Assembly (NCBI RefSeq): GCF_001424645.1
Contig: NZ_LMQR01000001.1
Coordinates: 427,301 to 491,300, forward strand
Reading direction: 5' to 3'
DNA from: Frigoribacterium sp. Leaf415
GTDB lineage: Bacteria; Actinomycetota; Actinomycetes; Actinomycetales; Microbacteriaceae
DNA length: 64,000 nucleotides
The translations under genes were made by a program, and so were the position numbers. Below, one piece after another: positions 4,921-6,194 of this stretch (positions are counted from its first letter, which is position 1; each line of letters opens with the position of its first letter). The notes under the pieces were generated by a model, which made no database searches, was not told where the DNA came from, and was given only the letters and a program-made list of their open reading frames with translations.

Positions 4921-4949
4921 TTGACCCTGCTTCGAACGTGTGTTCGAAT
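4921..4949 (+). promoter_or_regulatory. LexA (SOS) box overlapping a leaderless promoter
   Basis: TCGAAC-GTGT-GTTCGA at 4932-4947 is a perfect actinobacterial SOS box (TCGAACN4GTTCGA). It lies between a candidate -35 TTGACC (4921-4926) and overlaps the candidate -10 TCGAAT (4944-4949), with a 17-base spacer. The ATG at 4956 is six bases past the -10, so LexA bound here should block RNA polymerase directly. The operator is seen; LexA binding is inferred. Confidence 0.85.
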
Positions 4950-4955
4950 GGGGGC

Positions 4956-6146
4956 ATGCGATGGTCCGAGCAAGCGGTCGACACCGAGAACGCCTCGGCG
5001 CTGCCCGGTCTGGCGCGGCTGAACAACCTGATCACCTCCGTCACGACACCCGAGTTCGCGGGGGTGACGTTCCACGAGGTGGTCGCGAAGAGCGCCCTCA
5101 ACCGCGTCCCGGGCGGCGACTCGGCTCTGCCTTTCGGGTGGACGATCAATCCCTACCGCGGCTGCAGCCACGCCTGCGTGTACTGCTTCGCCCGTCCCAC
5201 CCACGAGTACCTCGACCTCGACGGCGGCGACGACTTCGACCGGCAGATCGTCGTCAAGGTGAACGTCGCCGAGGTGCTCGCCCGCGAACTGCACCGCCCG
5301 ACGTGGCAGCACCACCCGGTCGCTCTCGGCACGAACACCGACCCCTACCAACGTGCCGAGGGCCGGTACCGGCTCATGCCCGGCATCATCGCCGCCCTCG
5401 CCGACTCGGGCACCCCCTTCAGCATCCTGACGAAGGGCACGCTGTTGCGGCGCGACCTGCCCCTGCTCGCCGAGGCGGCGCAGCACGTGCCCGTCGACCT
5501 CGCCATGTCGATCGCCGTCTACGACGACGACCTGCAGCAGTCGGTCGAGCCGGGCACGCCGACGACGGCAGCCCGCCTGGCCACCGTCTCGGCGGCCCGC
5601 GAGCTGGGGTTGTCCTGCTCGGTCTTCATGATGCCCGTGCTGCCGTACCTCACCGACGGCCTCGACCACCTGCACGCGGCGCTCGCCGCCGTCCGCGACT
5701 CGGGTGCCTCGAGCGTCATGTACAGCGCCTTGCACCTCAAGCCCGGGGTCAAAGAGTGGTGGTTCGCCTGGCTCGAGCGTGAGCACCCCGAGCTCGTGGC
5801 CAAGTACCGTGCGCTCTACTCCCAGGGCACCTACGCGCCGACGGGCTACCGCTCCTGGCTGGCCGCACGTCTACGGCCCCTGTTGCGCGAGTACGGCCTC
5901 GAGAAGGGGCAGTCCGACCCGGCCATGGGGTCGATGCGCTCGGCGGCGCTCGACGACAGCGCGCGTTCCCTGCGACTGATGGGGCTGAACGGCGCCGGCA
6001 CCGGCACGGGCACGGCAGCCGCCGGCTCCGCCGCCCTCCCGGGCATCCCCGACCTGTCGCTCGGTGCCGGTGGCTCCGCGGTCCCGCGGGCCCTCATCGC
6101 CCACGAGCTGCCGGGCGGGGCACGGTCGCAGCCGCGACTGTTCTGA
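4956..6146 (+). CDS. Radical SAM protein of the Rv2578c family (SplB-like)
   Basis: The product has 396 residues. YRGCSHACVYCFARPTHEY near residue 65 carries the CxxxCxxC cluster that binds the [4Fe-4S] and S-adenosylmethionine of radical SAM enzymes. Proteins of this Rv2578c group resemble spore photoproduct lyase (SplB), which repairs UV damage to DNA; the reaction of the non-spore group is not known to me. The perfect SOS box just before the start supports a role in the DNA-damage response. The ATG at 4956 is chosen because it matches the leaderless promoter; an in-frame extension to 4902 would read through the operator. The last ~45 residues are low-complexity Gly/Ala/Thr. Confidence 0.88.
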   Translation: MRWSEQAVDTENASALPGLARLNNLITSVTTPEFAGVTFHEVVAKSALNRVPGGDSALPFGWTINPYRGCSHACVYCFARPTHEYLDLDGGDDFDRQIVVKVNVAEVLARELHRPTWQHHPVALGTNTDPYQRAEGRYRLMPGIIAALADSGTPFSILTKGTLLRRDLPLLAEAAQHVPVDLAMSIAVYDDDLQQSVEPGTPTTAARLATVSAARELGLSCSVFMMPVLPYLTDGLDHLHAALAAVRDSGASSVMYSALHLKPGVKEWWFAWLEREHPELVAKYRALYSQGTYAPTGYRSWLAARLRPLLREYGLEKGQSDPAMGSMRSAALDDSARSLRLMGLNGAGTGTGTAAAGSAALPGIPDLSLGAGGSAVPRALIAHELPGGARSQPRLF

Positions 6147-6194
6147 GCCTGCAAGAGCCTGCGAGAGCCTGCGAGAGCCTGCGAGAGCCTGGGG
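6145..6194 (+). repeat. Five tandem 10-bp repeats after the radical SAM gene
   Basis: Units GAGCCTGCAA, three GAGCCTGCGA and GAGCCTGGGG follow end to end, the first overlapping the stop codon. The rest of the gap to 6375 holds no gene and two further near-repeats of GGTCGGTGGGTCACGG. Confidence 0.85.

Follow-up and report, generated by a model that had tools for sequence, protein, structure and literature searches.

What a radical S-adenosylmethionine (SAM) enzyme does in the SOS response is the question raised by a gene of the actinobacterium Frigoribacterium sp. Leaf415, in which LexA operator, promoter and start codon are fused into one element. The gene (positions 4956..6146, + strand; 396 amino acids) encodes a member of the Rv2578c family and lies in a window of 64,000 nucleotides (positions 427,301 to 491,300 of contig NZ_LMQR01000001.1, assembly GCF_001424645.1). 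We consider it probable, with moderate confidence, that its product is an SOS-induced, clamp-tethered radical SAM enzyme that processes DNA lesions and is distinct from spore photoproduct lyase (SPL).

The ATG start codon (4956..4958, + strand) is preceded on the same strand by a -35 hexamer TTGACC (4921..4926) and a -10 hexamer TCGAAT (4944..4949), which are separated by a 17-nt spacer. The LexA (SOS) box, the 16-bp palindrome TCGAACGTGTGTTCGA (4932..4947, + strand), has 0 mismatches to the consensus TCGAACN4GTTCGA and runs through the end of the spacer and four bases into the -10. A first-pass annotation, made from the sequence alone, had described a perfect box between the two hexamers that overlaps the -10, and that description stands; the distance from box to ATG, however, is eight bases and not the six it gave. 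Exact boxes are expected 0.0011 times in the window from its base composition and one was found, whereas boxes with up to two mismatches occur at chance level (6 found versus a mean of 4.3 in shuffled sequences), so that only the exact box stands out. A generic sigma-70 scan did not call this promoter (0 found), and the -10 has no A at position 2. The promoter call is justified instead by the conservation of both hexamers at fixed offsets in relatives.

The Rv2578c family model NF038135 matched proteins in 85/120 Microbacteriaceae genomes (84 above the cut-off), in 115/246 genomes of a class sample (103 above) and in 109/236 genomes of a phylum sample (26 above); among named relatives, that of Frigoribacterium sp. 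Leaf8 is the closest (94 per cent). To compare promoters, we reduced 294 loci to 258 that have an R-W start and differ in the 60 nt before it; the 36 dropped loci had no such start within reach, an upstream sequence shorter than 60 nt or one already represented. These 258 actinobacterial promoters are not phylogenetically independent. A LexA box with at most 3/12 mismatches lies 5-12 nt before the start in 212/258 of them, most commonly at a distance of 8 (0.3 per cent in shuffled sequence). Within these 212, the -35 TTG precedes the box by exactly 11 nt in 137 and by 12 nt in 22 (0-3 for each other offset from 6 to 25), and the -10 is TCGAAT in 118, TCGACT in 30 and TCTAAT in 23. Looking for the same box in orthologous promoters of Microbacteriaceae was one of the checks that the first-pass annotation had proposed, and its claim that the regulation is conserved in distant actinobacteria agrees with this fixed place of the box across the phylum.

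A Shine-Dalgarno (SD)-like motif is rare in the close-box promoters (7/212) compared to the remaining ones (37/46). Together with the spacing of the -10, this rarity leads us to predict that the transcript starts at the ATG at 4956 and is leaderless, for which lexA of Mycobacterium tuberculosis provides a precedent among SOS genes (PMC2897130). The leaderless promoter that had been proposed for the gene is therefore favored by the fixed box-to-start distance and the scarcity of SD-like motifs, but it is not universal in the family: most of the 46 remaining promoters are of a Streptomyces type, with the box about 30 nt upstream, a GAGGAGG and a leader. A box with up to three mismatches occurs anywhere in the 60 nt in 38 of these 46, although chance matches are more frequent in this wider scan.

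Several individual loci depart from these patterns. L044 has two LexA-like boxes, the additional one farther upstream, as do L117 and some other Streptomyces-type promoters. In Mycobacterium sp. 1274761.0 (L285, from 1501), the box is perfect and the frame stops after 58 residues, which reflects either a broken gene or an assembly error. Members of a divergent clade (L225-L233, family f77; 299-378 bits, below the cut-off) stand beside a member of the main family in some genomes and have partial boxes further upstream.

Regulation of this kind has been observed experimentally in Streptomyces venezuelae, in which vnz_31145, a 'Radical SAM protein' likened by its authors to thymine-crosslink repair enzymes, gives a LexA peak in chromatin immunoprecipitation and is induced 19.97-fold by mitomycin C (PMC9380542). 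This gene is probably the orthologue of the Rv2578c-family gene and is likely the same as SVEN_6313, the Rv2578c-family gene described in PMC12924846. The published LexA binding and induction thus belong to a probable orthologue and not to the window gene itself, whose promoter is of the leaderless type, whereas Streptomyces-type promoters have a leader and an SD-like motif. Taken with the fixed place of the box across the phylum, they argue for the LexA control that the first-pass annotation had proposed. For Rv2578c as a LexA target in M. tuberculosis, which it had also named, a literature search covering few subscription journals found no text with both Rv2578c and LexA. The regulatory idea is not new, because SOS control of SplB-like proteins has already been published in several phyla: it was predicted for splB in alpha- and beta-proteobacteria (PMC3323433) and in Bacteroidetes (PMC8565304), and is also noted in PMC3765255.

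The 3.42-Mb genome holds four exact TCGAACN4GTTCGA 16-mers (0.06 expected from base composition), all of which sit just upstream of an open frame. Besides the radical SAM gene, they precede an AlkB-like 2-oxoglutarate-Fe(II) oxygenase (PF13532; 20 nt from box to ATG), a PHP-domain DNA polymerase III alpha-like gene (PF02811, PF07733; 39 nt) and a 90-amino-acid open reading frame (ORF) with no Pfam match (17 nt). With these distances of 17-39 nt, the fusion of box and start is special to the radical SAM gene among the four. The shorter 14-mer CGAACN4GTTCG is unremarkable alone (4 found versus 2.9 expected). Upstream of recA and lexA of the same genome lie the boxes TCGAACACGTGTTCGG and CCGAACATACATTCGA, one and two mismatches off the consensus, respectively. 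We name the SOS-boxed polymerase only DNA polymerase alpha-like, because no DnaE2 match above the cut-off was found in this genome. Across the 120 Microbacteriaceae genomes, DnaE2 co-occurs with the family (71/84 versus 12/36), but the association is not upheld in genomes above 2.2 Mb (71/82 versus 9/13, P-value = 0.21). Since the signal fades in these larger genomes, we attribute the co-occurrence to genome reduction and did not use it as support.

The protein matches NF038135 over model positions 1-316/317 with 507.5 bits (cut-off 430), a full-length match that reveals no difference from the rest of the family. Its place in the radical SAM superfamily follows from PF04055 (57.5 bits, cut-off 29.5) and a CxxxCxxC iron-sulphur cluster motif (C70, C74, C77; 5163..5186, + strand), in which all three cysteines are invariant in 44/44 and 75/75 aligned relatives. 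Structure comparison with SPL (PDB 4fhc) identified the SPL fold. A sequence search against PDB gave nothing useful, and a profile search matched SPL weakly (E 0.0005). The alignment made for folding left out six of 80 loci (L262, L285, L300, L301, L304 and L312). Both the cluster and the resemblance of the product to SPL had been pointed out in the first-pass annotation, which had also named Rv2578c; an SplB-like fold and membership of the Rv2578c family are both supported.

Despite the shared fold, residues on which SPL depends are missing. SPL needs Cys140/141 (PMC3742179), and no fourth conserved cysteine was found to match it: only C70, C74 and C77 are invariant in the 44 and the 75 sequences. 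In a hand alignment, SPL Cys140 falls in the motif TNTDPYQRAE (T126-E135; 5331..5360, + strand), of which D129, Y131, Q132 and E135 are invariant in alignment A1 of relatives, and T126 is Thr in 41/44 and never Cys. C221 is Cys in only 25/44 relatives and faces Leu in SPL. At the position of the SPL relay residue Tyr98/99, 43/44 relatives have Phe and one has Tyr. We therefore rejected membership of SPL proper. Because the cysteine-tyrosine relay is lacking, the chemistry or the substrate is expected to differ from that of SPL, from which the window protein also differs by its clamp-type tail and SOS promoter. For this protein, a literature search covering few subscription journals found no report of an SPL fold that is kept while the relay residues are lost.

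Two insertions were seen in family members. In L063 (G025, 401-2380), an intein interrupts the gene directly before the third cluster cysteine, C77; Pfam matches it, with weak scores, to domains for intein splicing and of a LAGLIDADG-like kind, and NCBIfam has a model for intein-bearing members. Similar long spans occur in G008, G054, G091, G102, G106 and others, L063 being the one case inspected. At L244 (G418:C5:268313-279685), the gene is split near the GTNTDPYQ motif by about 10 kb with a serine recombinase (PF00239, PF07508); such an insertion into an SOS gene resembles the case of the phage Samy site in Streptomyces (PMC12924846). Relatives in phages are few and distant (7 records, <30 per cent identity).

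Beyond the family core, which extends to about residue 316, lie a variable, low-confidence linker (residues 317-391; 5904..6128, + strand; AlphaFold2 predicted local distance difference test <50 at 319-327 and 345-396) and a C-terminal QPRLF (6129..6143, + strand). This pentapeptide is of the type that binds the beta sliding clamp: bacterial clamp-binding motifs are QL[S/D]LF or QxxLF, are often C-terminal and depend most on positions 1, 4 and 5 (PMC12309361, PMC9690074). Like the proteins described there, the window protein has its QxxLF-type pentapeptide after a disordered linker, but Actinomycetota tails differ from the consensus in often having P at position 2 and often lacking Q. Pairwise identity is 49 per cent in the last five residues, compared to 10-14 per cent in the preceding 25, and L395 is invariant in 75/75 relatives. 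The strict terminal motif Q..[LMI][FLIMY] ends 120/166 complete proteins (54/78 in the named group, 17/30 in Microbacteriaceae, 42/51 in other Actinomycetota and 7/7 in the PA0069 family), as opposed to 0.3 per cent of tails shuffled in place and 3/2440 other ORF ends; the count left out L285, L301 (partial) and L250. Among the 46 failures, 36 retain a final LF-type pair (APTLF, EPTLF and similar). The terminal motif is not part of NF038135, whose 317-position model ends before the tail. The accessible position and conservation of QPRLF suggest that it is a putative clamp tether. No link between radical SAM enzymes and clamp binding was found in our literature search, which mostly did not extend to subscription journals.

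A similar combination of features is found in the PA0069 family (NF033668), with which the window protein shares a related core (212.8 bits, short of the 360-bit cut-off), a lineage-specific LexA box and a terminal QxxLF-type motif. We examined 17 PA0069-type loci from 44 plasmid records, of which ten pass the cut-off of NF033668, a further three carry the annotation of this family, three scanned in part stay below the cut-off and one was unscanned; the set contains near-duplicates (Azospirillum 4, Paracoccus 3, Sinorhizobium 2, Shinella 2 and Methylobacterium 2). The exact LexA motif of the lineage lies at most 400 nt before the matched core in 14/17 loci (0-1.3 per cent in shuffles), as GTTCN7GTTC in 13 Alphaproteobacteria and as CTGTN8ACAG in Aeromonas; it was not found at the loci of Methylobacterium bullatum, Pseudorhodobacter and Legionella adelaidensis. 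The tails read QLSLF, QLTLF, QLRLF, QLPLF or QLSLL and fit the strict motif in 16/17, the Legionella protein having LDLF followed by four residues. The family differs from the window protein in being proteobacterial in our sample, in its N-terminus and LexA motif, and in its canonical QLSLF-type tail. In eight more distant COG1533-like plasmid proteins, neither LexA motifs (three types tried; 0/8) nor the strict terminal motif (0/8) were found, although the tails of Gemmatirosa (QLSLGI) and Acetoanaerobium (QLSFF) nearly fit the latter. For Runella, Nostoc and an archaeon, which have different regulators, the LexA count is not a fair test. A ninth distant locus, L358, has a stop in frame and was left out.

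In the window itself, no operon partner of the radical SAM gene is evident among its neighbours: judging from their sequences, the upstream one is mqo-like and the downstream one resembles a sensor kinase. From the stop codon of the radical SAM gene onwards, the 10-bp unit GAGCCTGCGA is repeated in tandem (4.7 copies, 6145-6191).

Several observations weigh against a clamp-tethered lesion-processing enzyme under SOS control. The identity of vnz_31145 as the Rv2578c orthologue is putative, and its published box, TCGACCGTTCGCTC at -61, differs from the GGGAACN4GTTCTA that we find in Streptomyces some 30 nt ahead of the start. The box has been lost upstream of the orthologue in both sampled genomes of one Microbacteriaceae genus (L111/G004 and L112/G087). 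Q is absent from 13/30 Microbacteriaceae tails, which retain PTLF or LTLF, and Q..[LMI][FLIG] was not seen in the C-terminal part of two Y-family polymerases of the same genome. Foldseek places lipoyl synthase above SPL. Finally, the work on the Streptomyces protein (PMC12924846) calls its repair role speculative, gives a root-mean-square deviation from SplB of more than 4 A and observes no loss of fitness when the gene, which holds the attB site of phage Samy, is inactivated.

These last results would fit a gene that is under SOS control but largely dispensable or decaying, as would its inactive state in one natural host and its absence from 35/120 Microbacteriaceae genomes. We nonetheless regard this explanation as very improbable, given that 44 sequences share the three cysteines and many other residues without exception and that conservation extends to the promoter and to the final five residues despite a variable linker. 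Moreover, the words DNA damage, mitomycin, LexA and SOS response are absent from the text of PMC12924846, so a damage phenotype was apparently not its subject. A chance palindrome would account for the box in a window where boxes with up to two mismatches are at chance level, but the expectation for an exact box and the position conserved in 212/258 promoters led us to reject this explanation, whose probability we consider negligible.

The remaining alternatives concern what the enzyme acts on. A true SPL-type lyase in vegetative cells, to which SOS control would add dark repair of ultraviolet-induced thymine dimers, has been raised as 'photoreactivation' for splB (PMC3323433). We find it quite unlikely here, since no conserved cysteine corresponds to the required one and Phe takes the place of Tyr98. 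The family also shows no co-occurrence with photolyase in the 120 Microbacteriaceae genomes (57/84 versus 27/36, P-value = 0.52); we rejected a photolyase link, and this comparison is weak evidence either way. Modification of RNA or protein during SOS, with a tail that binds something other than the clamp, is in our judgment unlikely: SPL scores at least 2.5 Z above RNA- or protein-modifying enzymes in the structure comparison, the tails of PA0069 proteins are the canonical QLSLF/QLTLF, and the co-regulated genes point to DNA.

Under the reading that we prefer, an SOS-induced enzyme tethered to the clamp, LexA would occupy the promoter and block RNA polymerase, because the -10 is part of the operator. 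Damage would activate RecA, LexA would be cleaved, and a leaderless mRNA starting at the ATG would be made. Its product, a radical SAM enzyme with the SPL fold, may be docked by its flexible QxxLF tail on the beta sliding clamp at stalled forks, as translesion polymerases are, where a 5'-deoxyadenosyl radical would process, and most likely reverse or unlink, a replication-blocking base lesion.

More tentatively, and with slightly more doubt than conviction, we propose that the Rv2578c and PA0069 families together make up a single widespread class of clamp-tethered radical SAM enzymes, induced by SOS, that act at stalled forks with a DNA-lesion chemistry unlike that of SPL. With such a class, a pathway of direct reversal would stand next to AlkB and translesion synthesis, and the replication clamp would have its first clients among radical SAM enzymes. 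While SOS control of SplB-like proteins is known in several phyla, their role has so far been guessed from SPL. Given that the SPL relay is missing, the 'photoreactivation' label calls for caution, and the conserved clamp-type motif predicts where the enzyme works; with these two features, 'SplB-like' becomes a specific, testable model. The fused operator, promoter and start codon additionally constitute a compact natural SOS reporter. If the model is true, the family would carry out an uncharacterised radical repair step at the bacterial replication fork.
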